Origin: Loxodes magnus
Taxonomy: Eukaryota > Ciliophora > Karyorelictea > Loxodida > Loxodidae
DNA: 64,000 nucleotides
Assembly: GCA_946699065.1 (NCBI GenBank)
Contig: CAMPDV010001447.1
Span: 53,813-117,812 of the forward strand
Reading direction: 5' to 3'
Shown here: positions 32,338-64,000 of the stretch, piece by piece
Layout of the letters: each line of letters begins with the position of its first letter
Numbering within the stretch: position 1 is the stretch's first letter
Notes under the pieces: generated by a model
Database searches by the model: none
Seen by the model: only the letters and a program-made list of their open reading frames with translations
What the model was told of the DNA's origin: nothing
Made by a program: the position numbers and the translations under genes

Positions 32338-35300
32338 ATGGAACAAAATTAACATTTTTATCTACAACAAGAAGATAAATCTTCCTTGATAAGTTTAGAA
32401 ATTTAGTAACAAAATATGGAGTAAGCAAATAGAGAAAATTACTAAGAAGAACTTAAAGCAAAAGATAAAATTAAAGACAAAGAAATCATAAAATACTAAA
32501 ATGGAGATATTTATTAAGGATAACTAAAAAAAGCATTACCAAATGGATATGGAGTAATTAAGTATTTAAATGGAAATTTATTTAAAGGTTAGTTTTAAGA
32601 TGGAAAGAGATAAGGGAAAGGAATACTCTAATACAGAAATGGATAAATATTCGAAGGTGAATGATTATAAGATAAACCATATAATGGGGTAGGAGTTTTT
32701 AAATATTCAAGTGGAGATTTATTTAAAGGCCAGCTTCAAAATGGTTAGAAACAAGGGAAAGGAATACTTAAATACGAAAATGGATAGAAATTTAAGGGCT
32801 AATGATACTAGAATGAGCCGTAGAGTGGAATTGGAGTCTTCAAGTATTAAAATGGAGATATTTATGAAGGAGAATTTTAAAATGGCTTTAAATAAGGTAA
32901 AGGATTAATGAAATATAAAAATGGATAAACATTTAAAGGTAAATGAGATTAAGATTAGCCCTAAAAAGGATTTTTATGATATTAAAACGGAGATAAATAT
33001 GAAGGCTAACTTCAAAATGGACATAGATAAGGGAAAGGAATACTTTAATACAAAGGTGGCTAAACTTTTAAAGGGGAATGAAACTTAGGTAAACCTTGAA
33101 ATGGAACTGGAATTTTTAAATATTCAAGTGGAGATTTATTTGAAGGCCAGTTTCAAAATGGTTAAAAAGAAGGGAAAGGAATACTCAAATACAGAAATGA
33201 ATAAAAATTCGAAGGTGAATGAAACTAGGATTATCCATAAAATGGAACAGGAGAATTTAGATATTCAAACGGAGATATATATGAAGGAGAATTTTAAAAC
33301 GGTTATAAATAAGGAAAAGGTTTAATGAAATATAAAGATTGCTAAGCATTTGAAGGTGAATGAAACTAGGATAAACCCTCAAGAGGAGTTTTCAGTTACT
33401 AGAATGGAGATATATATGAAGGAGAATTTTAAAATGGTTATAAATAAGGTGAAGGAATAATGAAATATAAAAATGGACAAATATTTAAAGGTGAATGAAA
33501 TTAGGATTAATATTCAAGAGGAACTTTATAATACTGAAATGGAGATACATATGAAGGTTAGTTTCAAAATGGATTTAGATAGGGTAAAGGAATATTAAAG
33601 TACAAAAATGGCTAAATATTTGAAGGAGAATGAAATTTGAATTAAACCTAAATAGGAATCTTCAAATATTCAAACGGAGATATATATGAAGGTCAATTTC
33701 TAAATGGATATAAGTAAGGTTAAGGAATAATGAAATATAAAAAAGGATAAATATTTGAAGGCGAATGAAACTAAGATTATCCCTTAAAAGGAGATTTCAG
33801 TTACTAGAATGGAGATAAATATGAAGGAGAATTTCTAAATGGTAAATTTTAAGGATAAGGAGCATATAATTTTATTGCTAAATACATTTTTGACAAACAT
33901 TTAAGTGACATACATTAATATTAGTATAAAACAATAAAAATTGAAGGTAAGTGAAATAATGGATAACTTAAGTAAGAAGTAAAAGTACATTTAACTAATG
34001 AGATAATATATGATTAGAATATGCTTTTAACTGATAAAATCAATCATATCATATAATAACGAAATAGCCAAACTGTGATAAGAGATAAATTTAGTATTTA
34101 TTAAATGGAAAATAATTTAACTAATAATGTCTTCATTCAAATTTAGAGAAATCAAAATTTAATGAATCTAATATTTTCCTTTTTAAGTTTACGAAGCATA
34201 GTTAATTTATAGAAAGTAAATAAATATCTTAGAACTCTAACATATGAAATAAAGAAGTTATCAATCAAAAGAAACAATGATAATGTTTCACAGGTAAGAA
34301 GCAAAATGTAAAGCTGTTTTAAGTAATTAGCATACTAAAAAGTAAAAAGCTTATAAATAGATTTATCAGACTTGTCTAAGAGTTTATGTAATGATATTCA
34401 TAGAATGTTTTACAAGTCCCTTATACTTAATTAGCTACTAAACATATAATATAATCACCTAAATTATCTATAAGAACTCTAAATATAGTGTAATAGTTAA
34501 AGTTTCTATCTGCTTAGTCTGATACCTTCTTCACTTCAAAAGCTAGTCTATTGAGGATATTTAAATGACTAGGATTTACACTTTTTATCTAAGCTAGTAA
34601 AATTGGAGTATCTTGAGTTAGGCAATTGTTCTACATCATCTAATAGAAAAGGAATAACAGGAAGTTTTCTAATAGATTTGTGTTTGAGTTTGAATTTGAA
34701 AGTTATCAAACTAACAAGTGAGTAAATTAAAATATCTTATATATAAGAATACCTATAACTAAAAGGACATTCAGTATAAGAAATAAATATTAACTAAAAC
34801 TAGCAAATAGACTTATTACTTTAGCTATGTCCTAATATAATTTCCCTTGATTCATAGTAAAATAGCTCTATTAATGAACTATTAGGATATACTAGAAATA
34901 TCAATTTGCTTTAGTTAAAGTTGAATAATAATTTCCATTCTCATACCTTTTCTTTATTTATTGCTTAAGGATTTAATAGCCTCTAATAGGTAAGTATAGC
35001 TAACTGCTAAACCTTTAGCGATTCTAATTTAATTCTCCTTTTATAAAATACTCCCTGTCTTAAATCTCTGTTTTTGAAAGGAATGAAATTACTTCAAAGT
35101 ACAGCTATCAAGTAAATAGGTGACTATGGATAAAAATATGAATAAATAGGGTTAGTTGATATAGCATAGCTAGACTAGCAAGCATTGGAGTATATTTTCT
35201 CTTAGTGTCGCTAATTGTAATAAATAGAACTAAACTAGTAAATCAAAATAAGTGACTAGCTGTTTAAAATAATTTAGCTAAACTGTAAGTAGCTATAAAG

Positions 35301-35697
35301 TTTAAGTTTAAGTAATCTAAAGTTTAGTAATAGTTTAAGTTGAATCTAGGATTTTGCAATTTACATTAGACTTTTCCATTTTAAACTAGAAGGTTTTAGA
35401 GTAATTGATTAAAGCATTCATTTAATAATGAAATAGTTTAAACATTTAGTTACCTTAGAATTAATCAATGTATGTAGGTTATCCCTTAATACGTTTCCTA
35501 TATAAGATTAAAAGAAAGTTTAATATCCTATTTGGAAGAATCTGCGAATCCTTAAATTTCAAGATAATTTATAATCTGAAACATATATTTTTAAGTAAGT
35601 TAAAAAAAGATTAAAGAAACTAAAGATTTTTAATAATAACAAGGAAATTAGACTGTTAAATGAAGATCTTAACTTTGAGTTAGACAATATCCAATGA
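32338..35697 (+). CDS. MORN-repeat / F-box-like / leucine-rich-repeat protein, 1119 aa
   Basis: One frame runs unbroken from ATG 32338 if TAA/TAG are Gln and TGA is Trp. Residues 1-54 are a polar leader. Residues ~55-525 hold about 20 MORN motifs (NGD-x-YEGEF-x-NG), alternating a Phe form and a Trp form. Residues ~606-645 look like an F-box (NLMNLIFSFLSL, then VNKYLRTLTYE). Residues ~650-1115 are leucine-rich repeats of the FBXL/AMN1 type, such as 'LQQVSIANCQTFSDSNL'. Fifteen internal TGA codons occur, at 32662, 32803, 32944, 32977, 33079, 33097, 33220, 33361, 33496, 33535, 33631, 33763, 33952, 34552 and 35341; ten sit at the Trp of the MORN EGE-W position. TGG is used once (35533). LRR sequence continues past 35341, so the stop is placed at TGA 35695, after which coding character is lost. 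By family, MORN domains bind membranes or scaffolds and F-box/LRR proteins select ubiquitination substrates; the role here is unknown. No frameshift was found over 3.3 kb, so the gene appears intact. Confidence 0.88.
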
Positions 35698-35994
35698 TAG
35701 AGAGAAGAGAAGAAAAACTAACAATTATTAAAATATATTAAACATAATAGAAGATGTAAATGGATATAGATATCTAATTTTATTTTATCATTCAAAGCTT
35801 ATTTATATATAGCTATTATATCACCCAGTTTATGTATATGTTATCAATTATTTCTACTATTTTATTACATTACTGAGCTGTTTAAAAGAATCATTGCTAT
35901 ACAAATTATAAGAACACTTAGATTTAACTTTTAATAGGCAAATAGGGGTGATTTTACAGGCTTCGTTTAATTTAAAGTAATTTTTATTTAAAAA

Positions 35995-36975
35995 ATGGAA
36001 GGCTTCAATTCAGGTTTCTACACCATCTCCAAGAAGGAGAGGAAACTAGAAACCACTCTCAGTCAGTCTTCTTATACTTAACCTTTAACTTTTTCTTAAT
36101 AATCCGGAACATAGACCCAAGAAAAACAGAAGTAATCAAAGAAAATCATCCATGCAATAACTCCAACTTCATATGAAAAGCCAAGGAAGTAGATGAAATC
36201 TGCTCTTCACTAGGAGATCTCGGAGTTCAATCCTTCTAGCTAAATGAGTATATAATTGTTCATCAAAGTGGTGCTAAACCTCCTGGAAGAGGTCAGAAAG
36301 CTGAAAAAGGACAATGACAATCTAATGGAGAATCTGAACAAGTGAGGAAATCGAATCAAGACTCATGTCCCAGGAAAGAGATTTAAATGCTTTCTGAAGC
36401 ATTTCATAAGATCAAAGCAACCAATCTTAAAGATAACAATAGAATCAGACAGAAATTGGAAATAGAATAGAGAAAATAGAAGAAAGCTAGCAAAATTACA
36501 ACTTAAAATGGAGATAAGAGAGTTAAAAGTAATCCAATATCGATTGAAGAAGAAATTATATTAAAGTCTAAAAGAAAATAGAGGTAAATAAAGATTAGAA
36601 AAACATGCTTTTGTTGTGGAAGCTTGTGACATTTATATTGAAAATGTAAGAAACTCTAGTAGAAATGACTGAACTATCGGATTAAAAAAATAAGAAGAAA
36701 TAATCAAGAAGAAACAAGATTAAACCGAATATATTGCAATCCAAGTGGAGAAATTTATAAAATCAAGAAAGATGCGATAAGATAAGAACAGGAAAGGAGA
36801 GGAAGGATAACCTGAAAAATTCATAGTTCCCAATATTGCTAAAATTGGTGATGCCAAATATTTTTTATTTAACAGCAGGAAGCTTGAACTGCTGTCTTCC
36901 GGATGGGGTTGAAATATCTCAAAATGGAAAAATTAAATTTATAAATTTTTATTATTATTATTATTTTTATTTATG
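35995..36975 (+). mobile_element. Zinc-knuckle / coiled-coil element, copy A
   Basis: ATG 35995 opens a 116-codon frame (starts MEGFNSGFYTIS) with several TAR codons as Gln. It contains a Gln/Ser-rich segment and a coiled coil (VVLNLLEEVRKLKKDNDNL). Relative to copy Y, bases are missing at 36343, which changes the frame. Downstream, 36606-36647 encodes a perfect CX2CX4HX4C zinc knuckle (C-FC-C-GSL-W-H-LY-W-K-C) with TGA at both Trp. A C-terminal part with 'KKDAIRQEQERRGRIT-W-K' and a 3' end near gatggggttgaaatatct follow. Coiled coil plus CCHC is typical of retroelement Gag or ORF1 proteins; no reverse transcriptase, integrase or transposase is seen nearby. Homologous copies at 42240-44161 show it is dispersed. 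The frame break suggests a dead copy. It starts 300 bp after the MORN gene's stop. Confidence 0.7.
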
Positions 36976-41204: not shown

Positions 41205-42239
41205 CTAATTTTAGATTATTTAAATAAAATTAAATAATTAATTTAAACTAAAGTTTTAAATTAAATAAAACTAAATTAAATAGTTATACTTTAAATGTAT
41301 AAGCATTTCAACTATTCTTATAAAGATAAAAACTAACTACCAAAATTTATCTATTTATAGTTTAAGTTAAAGTAATTAGATATTCCTCATAAACTTAGTT
41401 ATCTTTATTAGTTATTTTATCTTAACTTTATATTAATTTAAGATACCAATCATTTAATACTCTTATAATATCACTAATTGAATTATCTTAATCAACTTAT
41501 TTTTTAATTTTCTAATTAATATTCCTTCTATCATCCTAAAATAATAATTAATATTCTTTAATCTAATAAATTTTAAAGTTTTTATTTATGCATAAATAAT
41601 AAAAAGTAAATGTTTAAATAGAATATTAGCTTATATATTCACTAGTTTATTCTAAATATTTTATTAACTAAATTCTAAGATTTAATTATTATACTTATAC
41701 CTTTATTAAATTAATTATATTATATTGCTAATATAGTTATTTAAATAGACTTTTTAAATTATTTATCTATTTTATTACATTTTATTTAAAGTTAAGAAAT
41801 TTAATTAAATCTATTTTCATTTAAATAGTAAAATAAATTAGTTTATAGAATAAAGTTAAAAATAATGAGAGTTGCATTATAGAAATATTTTATTTTACTT
41901 TTCTCAAGTAAAATAAAAGTTTCTTTATTTTAAATTTTGTAAATAAATAAAATTATAAAATAAATTTATTTAAGCATCTATAATCTTAATAATTGCTATT
42001 AATTTTACATTTTATGGTTTTATTTTAATTTTTAAATTAGCAAGTGTTAAGTTATGAGATAAGGATTATTTTATTAAATTAATATAATAAAAATTTTTAA
42101 TGAATAACTAGAAATGCTTAAAAATAATTAAATAAATAAAATAATTTTAAATTTAAGAGTTAACTTAGTCTTTGTATATTAGTTTATGTTTAAAATTAAT
42201 TTTTATTTTTTAAACCTTTAAATAAAATATTGACTTGAA
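41205..42239. other. AT-rich stretch, nothing recognised
   Basis: Very AT-rich with short direct word repeats of attaaat type. It may contain the missing 5' exon of the Myb-like gene, but none could be identified. Confidence 0.4.
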
Positions 42240-42730
42240 TAATAATAATATATAAATTTAAGTTTTCCTTTTTTAGATATTTCAACCCCATCCGGAAGAC
42301 AGCAGTTCATACTCCCTGCTGTTAAATAGAACTGTTTGGCAGCGAAAATTTTAGCGAGATTAGAACTCGGAATTTTCCATGTTAATCTTCCTCTCCTTTC
42401 CTGCTCTTGTCTTATCGCATCTTTCTTGAATTTATAAATTTATCCACTTGGACTGCAATACATTCGATTTAATCTTGCTTCTTCTTGATTCTTTCTTCGT
42501 TTTTCTTGGATCCAATAGTTCAATTTTTTCTGCTAGAATTTTTTACATTTCCGATATAAATGTCACAAGCTTCCACAAAAAAAAATATTTTTTTGTTAAT
42601 CTTTATTTACCTCTATTTTCTTTAAGGTTTTCTGATAATTTCTTCCTCAATCAGCATTGGATCACTTTTATGCTCTCTTATCTCCATTTGAAGTTGTAAT
42701 TTTGCAAGCTTTATTCTATTTTCTCTATTA
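42240..42730 (-). mobile_element. Zinc-knuckle element copy X, 3' half
   Basis: Inverted relative of the second half of copy A. The minus strand gives the C-terminal side of the knuckle (C-GSL-W-H-LYRK-C, TGA at the Trp), then 'RLNRMYCSPSGQIYKFKKDA', 'RRGRLTWKIPSSNLAKIF' and 'CCLPDGVEI'. The first knuckle Cys is lost next to A/T homopolymer runs. At 42377-42379 the Trp of 'LTWKI' is TGG where copy A has TGA (36813). It is separated from its 5' half by copy Y. Confidence 0.68.
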
Positions 42731-42734
42731 TTAT

Positions 42735-43680
42735 TGTCATTAAAATAGTAAAGTTTGGCAAATTTCGAGGATTTTCACCTTTTCATACCGTTCCCAGATT
42801 ATTCCGGGATTAAAAAAAGGTTTATAAATCTCTACTCCTCTCCCACACTCTTGTTCTTGTTGTCTCTAACTATGTCTTCCGTTAAGCAAAGGTTTCTTCC
42901 TATAAATATTTCCAAGCTAGTTCATGAATAGTCTCTCTCTAATTTTCCTTTGTTATAGTTGTCTCTTTTTCTTTTGCTAGGCTTGCTATTTCCTTTATTT
43001 TCTCCAATGCTGGTTCTTAAAGTTTAGAAATTACTCACATCTTCTTCATAGGTGTTTCTCCGAATTACAATAGTAGCACCTTTTAACTACTTTGATTGGC
43101 TTAGTCTTCTTCTTCTTGTCAATTATCTCTATCAGCATTGTATCACCTTTTACCTCATTAAGTTTCATTTACTGTTGCAGCTTCTCTTCTATTTCTCCAA
43201 GCTTGCTGCCAAACTCCATCTGTTTCTATTGCTAATTTTAGGATTAGTAGTTCTGACTCTGTGAATGTTCCAAAATGCACTTAATTCCTTTTCTTAAGAC
43301 CTAATTCTTGACACGATTTCCTCTTGCTTGTTCAGATTCTCCATTAGCCTGTCGTTGTCCTTCTTTAGTCTCTTGACATCTTCCTGGAGGTTTAGTACAA
43401 CTTGGATGAGCTGTTCCATGTTCATCTGGCAAGAAGGATTAAATTCCGACACCTCCTGGTGTAAAGTAGACTTTATCTGCTTTCTAGGCTTCTCTAGTGA
43501 AGTTGGTGTTTCAGTATGCTTGCTTTTCTGGGCCTTCTTCTATTCTTCTTGTTAAATTCCAGGTTGTTAATATTAAGAAAAAGGTTAAAGTTGTGAGGAA
43601 GACGACTACCAAGAAGTGGTTTCCTGCTTCCTCCCTTCCTTTTTAGCTTAGGAAGAGGTGGTATAGAAACCTTCCACCGT
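42735..43680 (-). mobile_element. Zinc-knuckle element copy Y, nested in copy X
   Basis: The minus strand opens at GTG 43675-43677 where copies A and X have ATG (V/M-E-G-F-Y-T). The frame runs through a Gln/Ser-rich region, 'EKPRKQIKSTLHQEVSEFNP', a coiled coil (VVLNLQEDVKRLKKDNDRL) and 'KELSAFWNIH'. After a frame change near 43235 it continues with 'KLGEIEEKLQQQMKL', a perfect CX2CX4HX4C knuckle at 43037-43078 (C-YY-C-NSEK-H-L-W-RR-C, TGA at Trp 43046-43048), a basic Gln/Lys-rich tail and 'KVKILEICQTLLF'. It is clearly diverged from A and X, which resemble each other. The lost ATG and frame change indicate an inactive copy. Confidence 0.7.
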
Positions 43681-43689
43681 TTTTTTATA

Positions 43690-44161
43690 ATTATATTCTA
43701 TTTACAATTTCTGTCTGCTTCTATTGCTAGCTTTAAGATTGGTTATTTTGATCTTATGAAATGTTTCAGAAAGCATTTAAATATTTTCCTGGGACATGAG
43801 TCTTGATTCGATTTCCTCTTCCTTGTTCAGATTCTCCATTAGTTTGTCATTGTCTTTTTTTAGCTACCTGACCTCTTCTAGAGGTTCAGTACTACTTTGA
43901 TGAACTATTCAATACTCATCTGGCTAGAAGGATTAAACTCTTAGACTCCTAGTGAAGAGCAAACTTCATCTGCTTCTTTGGTTTCTCTTATGAGGTCGAA
44001 GTTGTTGCATGTGCTGTCTTCTAAGCTTGTTTCTGTTCTCCAAGTTATTAAGTTTAAGAAAAAGGTTAGGGCTAAGGGAAAGAAGACTATGTAATATTGG
44101 AATCAGGTTTCCTCTTCAATTTTTTGGAGGTGGTATAGAAACCTCTTTTGAATTCTTCCAT
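43690..44161 (-). mobile_element. Zinc-knuckle element copy X, 5' half
   Basis: The minus strand starts ATG 44159-44161 (MEEFKRGFYTTSKKLKRKP), homologous to copy A from its first residue. Frameshifts follow, but the nucleotide match to copy A is clear through the coiled-coil region and 'EEIESRLMSQE', including TGA at 43766-43768 where copy Y has TGG. Homology stops at about 43690 in a word equivalent to aaatagaatagagaaaatag of copy A, and resumes at 42730 after copy Y. This places Y as an insertion into X. Confidence 0.68.
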
Positions 44162-47100
44162 TTTTTATTTTATTACATTGACGTGAATATATAATACCAA
44201 AATATTTTTTTAATGAAAATGCTAAGCTAATATAATTTTAATTTTTCAAAAAATGCTTATTATTCAAGTAGATTTTAAGTTTTAATAATAAATTATAAGA
44301 TGATGCATATATAGCACTTAAGGTACAATTTGCAATAAAATTGTTTCTCTTTTTTAATTAATAAAATGTTTATTTTTTATTCTTAAAAAAATTATAAAAA
44401 CTTACAATATGAAATAACTTAAATTTAGCATTTTATTACTAAGAACAATATTTAATAGTATAAAGTAATTTTAACTATTTATTTGTTTACTTTATATTAT
44501 TATTTCATTATAGCATAAATTTTGAGCACATATTTTAAAATTAATTGTTTTTACCAGCAATATAAAATTTTAATAATGTTAAAGTGAAAAATTTTTAATA
44601 TAAATAAAAAATCATAAAGCTTCATAAATATTTAAAATTTTTTATTTATAATTAAATCCAAATTTAGTCCTTTTATAAACTCTTAAGAAATTATTGATTT
44701 ATAAAATTATTTATAATTATATTAATTTATTTTCTAAATACATTAATTTTTTAAATAAATCAAAATCTTAAATTTAAACTAAAATTAGTCGACCCAATTA
44801 GATAAATTAAGAAAAGCTTAGAATCACAGATTATATTGTCTTTATAATAAAATAAATTACTCAAACTCTCTTTTTTTATTTATTTCTAATTAAAGGCTTT
44901 TAAGAGCAAATTATACCTTATTTTTTATATTTTTTTTAGATAAAGAAATTATTAAAATTTAGAATATCTAAGTTTTTAATTAATATAAATAAAATAATAA
45001 ATTATAATAATATTCTTAAATTTTCATTTATAATTTCCTGCTTATATTAAAACTAATAAAAATAAGCAAAACGTCCGTTTATTCATATATGTAAAATAAA
45101 AAATTTACAGATAAAAGGAAATTAACATATAAAATGATAAATGAAATAAGCTACACCAAAATTCCTGTTACAGATTAAATTTTATAGTACCTCAAAGCCT
45201 TTTATTATAATTGGAGGAATAATTAGGATAAAACATAACAGGAATTAAAATAATAGATAGATTTGCTTATTCTCTTATTTAGATGGCAGATAGCTTTCAT
45301 TGTTGAGAATCGATGTAGAAAATTTATAAAGTGAGATAGAAGTCTACTATGTTTTAATAGTGTCTAATAAATGTTTAATAAAACATAAAATTTATTTTAA
45401 ATATACACTTATTTCTTTAAATTATCTAAAATTAGAGTAAAACATAATTAAAACGTAAATTTCATAATAAAATTCTATCTATAGTTACTATAAAATTTTA
45501 TAAAATAGACGAGAAAGTTAGAGACTATAATGACTATAAATTAAAAATATTAAAAATAAGAGATAAAATAATAACTAACAAAAACTAAAGAAAATAATAA
45601 ATATTATAAAAGAAAAATAATATAAAGTAACGCATATCTATTCATTGTTAATTATATACATTTTAAGAGTTTTTATTTATTTAGTTAAAAATTATAAAAA
45701 ATAAAGTAAAATTAAATAAAAATTATGAAAAATGTATTTTTTAGTTTGGTAGCATGTAATAAATTAAGGATTATAGCTAAGAATAAAAATCTAAAATTTT
45801 AGGTTATATCATATCAATTTTTAATGTACCTCTGAGATTTATTTTAATAATTATCTTTTAAATAAATCAACTCAAATAGTAAAAGTTAAATTATATTAAT
45901 AAAGCATTTGCATATAAAGAAAATATGTTGTATGGCTTTATCTTTAATAGATTAAGTAAAGCTTTTACATAATTTAAAATTTAGAGTTAGTTAATTAAGA
46001 AATGTGTGTAGTTATAATTAATATAAACTCCTTATCCAATAAATTAGTATTACTATTATTTAAGTCATATTAGATTAATTGAAAAAATTAAAGTTCAAAT
46101 TATAAAGCTAAATTTTATGAAAAAATTTGTATTTTTCTCAAATTAATAGAAAAAATAATTTCTAAATAAATTTACAATCCAATCCTTAATACAAAGGTTA
46201 ATGAAGGAGATATGCAGTTTATAATATTTTTTAAACAATTTAAAGCATAAATTATTTTTAATCAGCATAATTTAAATAGCTCTTGTATTTAAGCAAGAAA
46301 CAAATCCTCAAGTTTAGAGAATTTAGATTGAAAGAAATATAGTTAAGCATTAAAAATAAAAAATGATAAAACTTAATAAAGTTGAAACATTTCGTTTTTA
46401 TGCTAAACAAAAAAATTATGCGAATTAAAATTAAAAAATAATAATTTTAGAAGGTATACAATCTCCATAAGATTTAAAATGATCTTCATAAATAAAAAAT
46501 TAAGTTATATGATAAAAAATTTCAAAATATATTTATACAAAAAGGATTATTTAAAGAAGAAAAATTTAGAAGAGATAGTCGACCAAGATATAAATTCTTA
46601 GCAATGAGGAGAACTACTTAAATACAAAATTTAATTGATCTCTGCATTAATTTAAAATGATTATCACATTTAAAAAGTTTTGGAGCTTTATTAATTTTAT
46701 AATAATTTCTAGATAAATGAGACAATTAAAATATTTTAAAGTTATTACCTTTAAGACAATTAAATAAAAATAGATAGCTGAATTTAAATTTTAGTAAAAA
46801 TAGGTACTACCAAATCCTTTAATTAAATTCATCAATTGATATAATAAAATTTATCAAATAAAAACATCTAAAAACTATAAAAGAGCATTTTTATCTAAAA
46901 CTTAGTTACATATTTAAAAGAAATTTCTCAATTTAAGTTTATAAAAGAATATAGGAATTAATGCTTATATAATTCAGGCAAATAATTAAAAGCAGAAAAG
47001 ATAATGCTCTTCCGATTTCTTACAATTTTCATAGAAAAAATAGAAAAAATAAAAGATAGTTCAAAATAAAATAATTCAAAATTTTTTTTTCTATTTAAAC

Positions 47101-55580: not shown

Positions 55581-55949
55581 GAATTTGATAATAGTTAAGC
55601 TTTTCCATTTAATCAAATAAGAATAATAAATATAGTAAAGTTGTAATTCATTAAATCATTTGTTTGACTAACTAAATTTTTATTGACTCTCACTTCTTTG
55701 TTTCTATATTATATATTTAAACTGTTTGAATCTATTATGTAAATTTTCTTTTTTGCAGTTTAAGCACAAACATCAACTTAATTTATTTTATCTAGTTTTC
55801 TAGTTGATATAATTCATTCAGATTAAAAATTTAAATATTTCCAGTTCCTTCATTAAAAATATAAACTTACTTTAAACTAAAAATGTATAGGATTATTCGT
55901 TTACGTAAATCTTATTTATAGTGTTTTTCAAGTGTCTTTTTCGATATTG

Positions 55950-56345
55950 TATGCAATGATTGCTGCAAGAGCAAGACGAGAAAAACTGAGTGAAATTAGA
56001 TTCAAGACTCAAATTAATAGAAGAAAACCTATAGAAGCTTTCATAAGAAACTCCAATGGAGATAGGGAAACAAGAAAAGACATTTCCTAGAGCAAGAAAA
56101 AGAGACTACATTTGCAACAGCACTTGACATTTATGACGGAAATGTCTCCAATAGAAAAAAATAAGAATGAATATCTGTTGAAATTTTAACTAATAAAAAC
56201 TAAAGTAAAGAGCGACAGAATTCTTCCCATCGGGAAATGGGAAAATCTGGAAAAAAATTCTCAATTCAAATTATATGAATGAGAGAAGTCAGGAATAAAA
56301 TACAATGCAAGGATAGAACATGCAGAAACGGAGATTTATTACATT
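55950..56345 (+). mobile_element. Zinc-knuckle element, diverged copy D
   Basis: At 56111-56143 the plus strand encodes C-NST-W-H-L-W-RK-C, the C-X4-H-X4-C part of the knuckle, with TGA at both Trp as in the other copies; the first Cys is replaced. Upstream are the remnants 'KLSEIRFKTQINRR' and 'NGDRETRKDIS'. Downstream, 'EKSGIKYNARIE' and an 'IKPEGEQLF' tail resemble the C-terminal 'LPDGVEI' region of copies A and X. Frame breaks are frequent, so this is an old relic. Confidence 0.5.
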
Positions 56346-56431
56346 TAAAACTTCAATTAAACCGGAAGGCGAACAGTTATTTTAATGATTAATTATTATA
56401 TGCATGGTTGGATTTTAAAAATCTTTAAATA

Positions 56432-60373: not shown

Positions 60374-60598
60374 CTTTTAAAATTTTATTCCGTCACAAAA
60401 AATTTTGTTCCGTCCCAAAAAATTTTGTTCCGCTCCAAAATAAATTGTTCCGTCCCAAAAAATTTTGTTCCGTCCCAAAAAATTTTGTTCCGTTCAAAAA
60501 AAATTGTTCCGTCCCAAAAAAAATTTGTTCCGTTCCAAAAAAATTTATTCCAAAAATTTATTCCGTCACAAATTATTTTAGTCCGTCACAAAAAATCT
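60374..60598. repeat. ~20-bp tandem repeat (aattttgttccgtcccaaaa)
   Basis: About ten to eleven imperfect copies of aattttgttccgtcccaaaa, period about 20 bp with 17-21 bp variants. The ttccgtccc core is GC-rich within AT-rich flanks. Open frames across it are repeat artefacts. Confidence 0.9.
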
Positions 60599-60615: not shown

Positions 60616-61320
60616 TGAGCAAAAAAACAAATTCTTTATTTTCACTTCTTTTACACACTATTACACACCAAATTCAACAAAAAAACTTACACACTCATAA
60701 CCTAACATACCCTAACATACCCTACATACCCTACATACCCTACATACCCTACATACCCTAACATACCCTCACATACCCATAACATACCCTAACATACCCT
60801 AACATACCCTACATACCCTAACATACCCTACATACCCACACTTAAATATCTTCTCCAAATTCCTCTTAAACCTCCACTTTCTCTCCACCTAAACACTTAA
60901 CTCTTCAATTAAAAAAAATACTCACCACACTCACACACTTTTTATTCCAATCCATTTAAATTCTATAATTTATTTTATATTTATATTTATATTTATTCAC
61001 TAATGATTGCTTAATACTTTCTTACTCACACTTTCTCTAATCTTATTTTTTCTCTTTTTGAATTCAAATACTACACTAATTCATTCCTTTTAATAACCTC
61101 AACACTAAATTTTTTCACTTTTAATTTTGTTATTTTTCACACACCCTTTCTAAAATACTTTTAACTACTCTCTTTATTTCAACTCTCTTATAGACACTCA
61201 CTTAACTTTTTAAAAACACTTATTATCTAACACTATACATACCACTTGTCTTATTAAATACTTCAATTCAAAAAAAAATTATAACTTATAATTTACTTAT
61301 CTTAATTCAATTATTATATT
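60616..61320. other. 700-bp segment almost devoid of G on the plus strand
   Basis: From the end of the 20-bp repeats to the WD40 gene the plus strand has only about ten G but well over a hundred C. It includes the CATACCCTA repeats and then pyrimidine-rich sequence (ctctccacc, cactcacacac). No gene is evident. It lies directly 3' of the minus-strand WD40 gene. Confidence 0.8.
60701..60838. repeat. Telomere-like CATACCCTA(A) tandem repeat
   Basis: Fifteen or so copies of a 9- or 10-base unit, catacccta or cataccctaa. It contains the word ccctaa but is irregular, internal, and different from the known ciliate telomeres (C4A2, C3A/C4A2 types). It lies about 100 bp from the 20-bp repeat array. 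Confidence 0.9.
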
Positions 61321-61344: not shown

Positions 61345-64000
61345 TCACAATGAAAAGAACCTGTCTTGCACTAGTCTCACATTCATCTACTCCATTGCCA
61401 CTCCCTCAAAGTTCACATTGATGCACCACCAATCCCATTTCTTCCCATCATCCTCTTTAACAGATAATCCCGATGATCCTTTGCTGTCTCCCATATCTTG
61501 ATTGTTTTATCATAACTTCCAGATATTTAAATACTTAGAGTCACTTGATAATACCAGAGAAAGAACACCAGAAGTATGACCCTCTAATGTTCTTATAAGC
61601 TCATATGTTTACATGTCCCATATCCTTATTGTTGTATCATAACTTCCAGATATTAAATACTTAGAGTCACTTGATAATACCAGAGAAGTAACACGATCAG
61701 TATGACCCTCTAATGTTCTTATGATCTCATATGTTTACATGTCCCATATCACTATTGTTGTATCAACACTTCCCGATATTATAAATACTTAGAGTCACTT
61801 GATAATACCAGAGATTCAACATAATTAGTATGACTTTATAGAGGCTTAGTAAGATTATCTACCTACATGTCCCATATCCTTATTGTTGTATCATAACTTC
61901 CAGATATTAAATACTTAGAGTCACTTGATAATACCAGAGAAGTAACACGATCAGTATGACCCACTAATGTTCTTATGATCTCATATGTTTACATGTCCCA
62001 TATCACTATTGTTGTATCAACACTTCCCGATATTAAATACTTAGAGTCACTTGATAATACCAGAGAACTAACCCAAGAAGTATGACCCTCTAATGTTCTT
62101 ATAAGCACATATGTTTACATGTCCCATATCCTTATTGTTGTATCCCAACTTCCAGATATTAAATACTTAGAGTCACTTGATAATACCAGAGAATTAACAG
62201 AATTAGTATGACCCTCTAATGTTCTTATGAGCTCATATGTTTACATGTCCCATATCCTTATTGTTTCATCACAACTCCTGATATTAAATACTTAGAGTCA
62301 CTTGATAATACCAGAGAAGTAACATCATAAGTATGACCCTCTAATGTTCTTATAAGCTCATATGTTTACATGTCCCATATCCTTATTGTTCTATCCTCAC
62401 TCCCAGATATTAAATACTTAGAGTCCACTTGATAATACCAGAGAAGTAACACGATCAGTATGACCCTCTAATGTTCTTATAAGCACATATGTTTACATGT
62501 CCCATATCACTATTGTTTTATCACCACTTCCAGATATTAAATACTTAGAGTCACTTGATAATACCAGAGATTCAACATAATTAGTATGACTTTATAGAGG
62601 CTTAGTAAGATTATCTACCTACATGTCCCATATCCTTATTGTTTCAATCACAAACTTCCTGATATTAAATACTTAGAGTCACTTGATAATACCAGAGAAG
62701 TAACACGATCAGTATGACCCTCTAATGTTCTTATGATCTCATATGTTTACATGTCCCATATCACTATTGTTGTATCAACCACTTCCCGATATAAGATACT
62801 TAGAGTCACTTGATAATACCAGAGAACTAACCCAAGAAGTATGACCCTCTAATGTTCTTATAAGCACATATGTTTACATGTCCCATATCCTTATTGTTGT
62901 ATCCCAACTTCCAGATATTAAATACTTAGAGTCACTTGATAATACCAGAGAATTAACAGAATTAGTATGACCCTCTAATGTTTCTTATGAGCCTCATATG
63001 TTTACATGTCCCATATCCTTATTGTTCTCATCACAACTTCCTGATATTAAATACTTAGAGTCACTTGATAATACCAGAGAAGTAACATCATAAGTATGAC
63101 CCTCTAATGTTTCTTATAAGCTCATATGTTTACATGTCCCATATCCTTATTGTTCTATCCTCACTCCCAGATATTAAATACTTAGAGTCACTTGATAATA
63201 CCAGAGAAGTAACACGATCAGTATGACCCTCTAATGTTCTTATAAGCACATATGTTTACATGTCCCATATCACTATTGTTTTTATCACCACTTCCAGATA
63301 TTAAATACTTAGAGTCACTTGATAATACCAGAGATTCAACATAATTAGTATGACTTTATAGAGGCTTAGTAAGATTATCTACCTACATGTCCAATATCCT
63401 TATTGTTTTTATCACGACTTCCAGATATTAAATACTTAGAATCACTTGATAATACCAGAGAAGTAACAGACTTAGTATGACCCTCTAATGTTCTTATAAG
63501 CTCATATGTTTACATGTCCCATATCCTTATTGTTTCATCACTTCCCGATATTAAATACTTAGAGTCACTTGATAATACCAGAGAAAGAACATCAGAAGTA
63601 TGACCCTCTAATGTTCTTATGATCTCATATGTTTACATGTCCCAATCACTATTGTTGTATCAACACTTCCCGATATTAAATACTTTGAGTCACTTGATAA
63701 TACCAGAGAACTAACCCAAGAAGTATGACCCTCTAATGTTCTTATAAGCACATATGTTTACATGTCCCATATCCTTATTGTTGTATCCCAACTTCCAGAT
63801 ATTAAATACTTAGAGTCACTTGATAATACCAGAGAATTAACAGAATTAGTATGACCCTCTAATGTTCTTATGAGCTCATATGTTTACATGTCCCCATATC
63901 CTTATTGTTTCATCACATACTTCCTGATATTAAAATACTTAGAGTCACTTGATAATACCAGAGAAGTAACATCATAAGTATGACCCTCTAATGTTCTTAT
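61345..64000 (-). CDS. WD40-repeat protein, 3' part, frameshifted, runs off right edge
   Basis: The minus strand encodes about 20 tandem 42-residue WD40 repeats. Each reads close to 'GHT-x-x-V-x-SLVLSSDSKYLISGS', then 'DTTIRIWDMQTYE' with TAA as Gln and TGG as Trp. The GH and WD dipeptides and the S/T-G-S strand are conserved, so two or three beta-propellers or one long repeat domain are expected, usually a protein-interaction scaffold. Many repeats carry 1-2 base insertions (e.g. at about 61530, 61785, 62405, 62645, 62780, 62992, 63273, 63893), so no frame is continuous. The C-terminus is either at TGA 61413-61415 or, after a frame change at the last IWE/IWD, at TGA 61345-61347; the latter tail ('KEDDGKKWDWWCINVNFE') looks more protein-like. 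The start lies beyond the window. Consensus errors in a repetitive gene or real pseudogenisation both fit. Confidence 0.85.
62041..63960 (-). repeat. Six-WD40 (~756-bp) higher-order repeat
   Basis: Classifying repeats by their variable parts gives a recurring order. The units at about 61922-62552 (agtaacacgatcag, actaacccaagaag, attaacagaattag, agtaacatcataag, agtaacacgatcag, ttcaacataattag) recur in order at 62681-63316, and part of the series recurs again from 63691. The ttcaacataattag unit carries a distinctive variant segment (ttatagaggcttagtaagat) at each occurrence (about 61810, 62585, 63350). Confidence 0.8.

Follow-up and report, generated by a model that had tools for sequence, protein, structure and literature searches.

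The 64,000-nucleotide stretch of Loxodes magnus DNA analysed here (the window) contains a single-exon gene at 32338..35697 (+) that encodes a protein of 1119 aa when read by code 27, with MORN repeats, an F-box-like region and leucine-rich repeats (LRR). The frame, Pfam, the PDB sequence search and the family alignment were used for this assignment. The frame consists of 1119 sense codons followed by the final TGA at 35695, and no frameshift was detected. Codon counting confirmed what the earlier note had reported, a 1119-codon frame free of frameshifts with 15 internal TGA and one TGG (35533); the frame also contains 81 TAA and 35 TAG (116 TAR) and 23 CAR. UGA accounts for 1.3% of the codons of this MORN gene, and its GC content is 25.4%, compared with a published L. 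magnus coding mean of 33.5% (PMC11441545).

Pfam detected 11 MORN stretches in the protein (E 5.4e-37), and the N-terminal half matched MORN1 structures in the PDB sequence search (4e-32). According to the repeat analysis and the beta-hairpin model, 20 tandem MORN hairpins are located at 32491..33888 (+, ends approximate), with about 135-141 bp per pair. The whole-protein structure model showed regular beta hairpins with block pLDDT mostly 80-94 across the MORN part. The hairpins mostly alternate: nine read F-x-G-x-TGA, in the other eleven Phe or Leu fills the slot, and TGG was found in 0 of the 20. Ten TGA occupy the MORN '[F/I]xGxW' position, nine in hairpins (codons 109, 156, 203, 248, 295, 342, 387, 432 and 477) and one at codon 539, bearing out the number claimed previously. 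The 20 hairpin slots take up 9 of the 12 TGA of codons 51-517 (hypergeometric P 1.3e-11).

The residue at the TGA sites was evaluated with TGA, TAA and TAG masked as X and the query aligned to 120 listed homologs (337 aligned stretches). At the nine TGA slots the homologs have Trp in 25-59% and Phe in 23-35% of residues; Trp is the top residue in eight slots, and in the ninth it is second to Phe. Among homologs, Trp makes up 34% of residues at the 12 TGA sites that were sufficiently covered, against 13% at TTT sites, 4.5% at TAT sites and at most 1.0% at TAA, TAG, CAA, GGA, AAA, GAA and TTA sites. The eleven Phe/Leu slots have 22-48% Trp among homologs, so the slot accepts Trp or Phe, with TTT standing for Phe and TGA for Trp in this gene. 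We rejected UGA as a residue other than Trp, given the Trp preference at eight of the nine slots and Phe, the first residue at the ninth, being written TTT in the alternate hairpins. The earlier note had placed other TGA at usual MORN Trp sites as well, which fails for codons 214, 254 and 400, where the commonest homolog residues are T/V/I, R/K/I and A/P/T, respectively. Its claim of frequent UAR at Gln-compatible sites agrees with the 116 TAR of the frame and with the Gln columns of the MORN repeats, at which TAA/TAG and CAA/CAG interchange. Nine MORN repeat units (36 pairs) gave a pooled pS of 0.50 and pN of 0.216; the ratio of 0.43 is below all 300 neutral simulations (minimum 0.55), which were run at lower synonymous divergence.

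In the C-terminal half, the F-box-like region spans about codons 607-637 and the FBXL-type leucine-rich repeats span codons 875-1049; together they lie at 34156..35484 (+). The Pfam F-box-like match has 18.2 bits, below the cut-off of 24.3. The PDB sequence search detected F-box/LRR proteins (E 2.1e-10), with the LRRs of FBXL2 and FBXL17 matched at codons 875-1049, and the LRR signal starts past 14 of the 15 TGA codons, indicating that the frame is kept across those TGA. The protein search with the C-terminal half gave 0 matches at E <= 0.001 among 7985 scored candidates, the structure models of this half had no confidence (in the whole-protein model, after residue 555), and base-composition periodicity was absent (chi 6.7 vs an intergenic mean of 5.7). 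Codon log-odds, for which the repeat half served as the training set, did not mark the C-terminal half as coding. In-frame TGA is depleted in this half (2 vs 9.1 expected, P 0.006), and TAR is not. In comparison with known FBXL and MORN proteins, the Loxodes protein joins a MORN N-terminus to an F-box-like/LRR part. Based on these domains, with the F-box below the cut-off, the protein is perhaps a membrane-linked substrate adaptor of an SCF ubiquitin ligase.

Several other elements were detected in the window. In a broken MORN remnant at 27.6-28.06 kb, TGA occupies a MORN-type Trp site along with other positions. Sequence comparison showed broken copies of a gag-like element at 35989-36956 (+), 42238-44167 (-) and 55942-56376 (+). 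They carry an apparent CCHC knuckle (no Pfam match), and in several copies TGA occurs in that region. The retroelement-like copies are too fragmentary to count as evidence; at one aligned codon, one of them has TGA and another TGG. Pfam gave no match above the curated cut-off in the six frames of 28.0-32.3 kb and 54.6-61.4 kb, the three + frames of 35.7-38.3 kb and the three - frames of 41.0-44.6 kb. A satellite array occupies 27 kb (1-27500), with periods of about 94 and 175 bp, neither divisible by three, and 158 copies of the longer unit (TRF). Tandem repeats were reported to account for 231 Mbp of the 706-Mbp L. magnus macronuclear assembly, which also has many retroelements (PMC11441545); the satellite of the window fits this repeat content. 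At 60696-60837 and 60379-60596 we found a telomere-like degenerate array, CATACCCTAA x 14.7, adjoining a 20-bp-unit array with TTCCGTCCCAA; as a guess, it is possibly a relic chromosome end.

The genome search (705,730,643 bases, 7843 contigs) demonstrated that the MORN protein matches 68 places in its own genome. We selected 20 relatives among these matches, beside eight loci that include the window copy (L001). The 21-sequence alignment is composed of the window copy and the 20 relatives; the seven other near-identical copies, left out of it, are 99.3-99.6% identical to the window copy and differ from it by 6-8 synonymous and 3-6 nonsynonymous changes (pS 0.009-0.012, pN 0.001-0.002). The relatives are 48-61% identical, each aligns in a single frame that includes 12-23 TGA, and five pairs of them are close (pS 0.02-0.11), so the counts are not all independent. 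Ten of the 20 relatives cluster on one 694-kb contig (C136). In the literature searched, titles and abstract openings gave no report of this MORN/F-box-like/LRR family.

Trp is present in at least 12 sequences at 13 alignment columns, and 12 of these columns hold 225 TGA and 11 TGG among the 21 sequences. TGA and TGG thus substitute for each other at the same conserved columns. Codon 539 (TGA in 19/20 relatives, TGG in one) and codon 1002 (TGA in 17/20, TGG in two) are conserved. TGA was found in 1/20 relatives at codon 214, 4/18 at codon 254, 2/20 (plus one TGG) at codon 400 and 0/20 at codon 739, and these four sites are young. In 210/210 pairs of the 21 members pN is lower than pS, whether the whole protein or only its C-terminal half is compared, which is the pattern of translated genes and a strong argument against decay.

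The earlier note had proposed to check genome-wide whether TGA occurs at conserved Trp columns; run for two families, MORN and actin, this check was favourable. Three canonical actin copies have TGG at all four canonical Trp sites, one canonical actin terminates in TGA, and TGA is absent from the best 44 of 96 actin matches; 8-10 in-frame TAR were found in each of the best 43. The four canonical Trp sites in 20 further actin-like loci (80 cells) gave 11 TGA, 44 TGG and 25 other codons; several of these loci are broken or distant (23-40% identical), and TGA is also present where actin carries residues other than Trp. The Myb-domain matches, counted by eye, have TGA at any column in 58/148 and in none of the best 27. 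By codon count, the window's own Myb-like gene (minus strand, 40731 to about 41190) has four TGG and no TGA, and the protein search for its region gave no match at E <= 0.001. Repeat analysis detected a WD40 array (61489-64000, -) in which a 126-bp unit recurs about 20 times; one of its columns is TGG in 16/19 copies and TGA in none, the other three having an indel or another codon. The frames of the array are broken by small indels, possibly long-read errors.

The UGA share of Trp codons is about 95% at the 12 conserved family columns vs 20% at the canonical sites of the 20 actin-like loci, and the multi-copy actins use only UGG. The heavy reliance of the MORN/F-box-like/LRR family on UGA is the striking part, less expected than the code itself. 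The family share also exceeds the A-ending share at the family's own conserved Glu (286/340, 84%) and Lys (258/438, 59%) columns. Both comparisons are in line with UGA in this family being not simply synonymous with UGG and slowing or conditioning translation by regulated decoding through a weak tRNA. Column memory and common descent give the same picture, however, since 4/25 Lys columns are at least 90% AAG, and some TGA are one step from the Gln codon TAA (codon 400 is TGA in six and TAA in two of the eight near-identical copies); we consider regulated decoding quite improbable. A regulatory role of the bias is possible. Most likely, the bias reflects the recent expansion of a UGA-rich ancestor, AT-rich mutation and weak selection for UGG. 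A related idea is family-specific Trp codon choice, with the fast-expanding MORN/F-box/LRR family almost entirely in UGA and the multi-copy actins in UGG, so that the level or state of the 4-bp-stem tRNA-Trp(CCA) or of the release factor could tune how much is made of entire UGA-rich families; it is speculative and only slightly less doubtful.

The terminal TGA (35695..35697, +) lies in a column conserved in the family: TGA is present in 16/21 members (the window copy and 15/20 relatives) and TAA or TAG in none. An end TGA was found in 19/21 members, 0-6 codons past the last aligned column in 17 of them, 14 codons past it in L034 and 35 in L047; the search, which covered TGA only past the last aligned column, did not find it for L037 and L041. 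In the window copy the next in-frame TGA is 215 codons beyond 35695. UGA is the usual stop at this family column and the stop of one canonical actin. A Condylostoma-type (table 28) or Plagiopyla code, in which UAR is also Gln and UGA also Trp and UAA/UAG may terminate too, would be served by gene ends in UAA or UAG, which escape a search for TGA only. The presence of TGA in 16/21 members and the absence of TAA/TAG at the column of 35695, and the TGA end of the actin, speak against it, and we regard such a code as very improbable for this gene.

The 32 codons upstream of 35695 contain no TGA, TAA or TAG, the absence of TAR having a P of 0.03 by chance. Among the 19 members with an end TGA, the last internal TGA is 35-544 codons upstream of it, and TAR comes as near as 12 codons; all 19 are therefore free of Trp-TGA over the 34 codons that lead up to the end TGA. 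In L. magnus, in-frame UGA was reported to be depleted over about 20 codons before the stop (PMC11441545). The only TGG of the gene, codon 1066 (35533..35535, +), is 54 codons before the stop, and in the family alignment its column, the 13th Trp column and the nearest to the end, has 15 TGG and two TGA among the 17 members with Trp. UGA avoidance as the reason for this lone TGG was rejected, because column memory, seen in the AAG-rich Lys columns, explains it equally well.

A tRNA pattern scan of the genome gave 436 matches vs 503 for the reversed control, so the scan pattern alone means little. Thirty-six of the 100 listed matches form one tandem array (contig C67:482323-488932) with a spacing of about 187 bp, and, with regard to a cognate tRNA-Trp(UCA), which code 27 is expected to lack, five selected loci from the scan (100 of 436 matches listed) were no tRNA. 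Two copies from the array are tRNA-Trp with the anticodon CCA. A tRNA-Trp(CCA) with a shortened anticodon stem, which the earlier note had proposed to look for, was found in these two copies: the stem is AUCGA/UCGAC, with A27 x C43 unpaired and four base pairs left. The 36 listed motif copies, two of them verified, are an unusual dosage for one tRNA, perhaps tied to UGA decoding. The release factor search with PF03463 gave three matches in the genome, the best of which presumably resembles Pelota rather than eRF1, and the release factor motif pattern gave no match in the genome. Published work ties the 4-bp-stem tRNA-Trp(CCA) to the reading of UGA in Blastocrithidia and Condylostoma and has described such a stem in Loxodes as well (PMC13092985); the two copies detected here have this feature. 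The Loxodes tRNA-Trp(CCA) with the A27xC43 mismatch is a candidate UGA reader.

We suggest, with a probability of about 0.96, that the MORN gene is an ordinary, selected protein gene that is read by NCBI code 27 (UAA/UAG as Gln, UGA as Trp inside and as stop at the end). The earlier note had proposed UGA as Trp internally and as stop near the 3' end, and this reading is supported by the gene, its relatives, the actins and tRNA-Trp. UAA and UAG would be read as Gln, and UGA as Trp within the gene and as stop at its end. By analogy with published work on related species, internal UGA would be decoded by the 4-bp-stem tRNA-Trp(CCA) and termination would occur at the UGA near the mRNA 3' end. A pseudogene of a code 6 ciliate (UGA stop only), with the TGA as nonsense mutations, would agree with the retroelement-like fragments and the broken MORN remnant nearby and with the TGG-only Myb-like and WD40 genes, but has next to no chance in view of the TGA shared at the same columns by 20 relatives, pN below pS in all pairs, TGA at canonical actin Trp sites and a C-terminal depletion that spares TAR. 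TGA also lies on Trp slots rather than on other one-step codons (Fisher P 1e-14 to 4e-12), contrary to the decay model. Decay, judged unlikely in the earlier note, was rejected on the family alignment, and G-to-A hypermutation on the glycine two before the slot, intact in 20/20 hairpins.

The code reading itself is not new: it is the already published karyorelict code (NCBI table 27, including Loxodes). No difference in code was found from code 27 of Parduczia and Loxodes, in which UAR is Gln and UGA is Trp inside and stop at the end, and the depletion of UGA before the stop (PMC11441545) is likewise seen in the MORN family. UGA use differs, 1.3% of codons in the MORN gene vs a published 0.120% in Parduczia, with 0.042% in Condylostoma (PMC4967479). 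All three stops are also sense in the Condylostoma magnum code (table 28), where UAA and UAG terminate too; here neither did so at the single column examined (35695). UAR as Gln with UGA as Trp was proposed in other lineages, for Plagiopyla frontata and Amoebophrya ex Karlodinium veneficum (PMC10553269, PMC12005148). Blastocrithidia has UGA as Trp with a 4-bp-stem tRNA-Trp(CCA), as in Loxodes (PMC13092985), but UAR is Glu and UAA also a stop there (PMC12153298), in contrast to UAR as Gln in Loxodes. In ciliate code 6 UGA is never sense, unlike in the MORN family and the actin-like loci.

Taken together, the Loxodes MORN gene is an independent confirmation, from sequence only, of a genetic code in which no codon serves solely as a stop. 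The family provides a good natural test set: its UGA-Trp sites number in the hundreds, its UGA stop is conserved, and the zone free of UGA upstream of the stop can be measured. If the UGA bias of the family is functional, the cost of UGA decoding under an ambiguous code would be directly testable.
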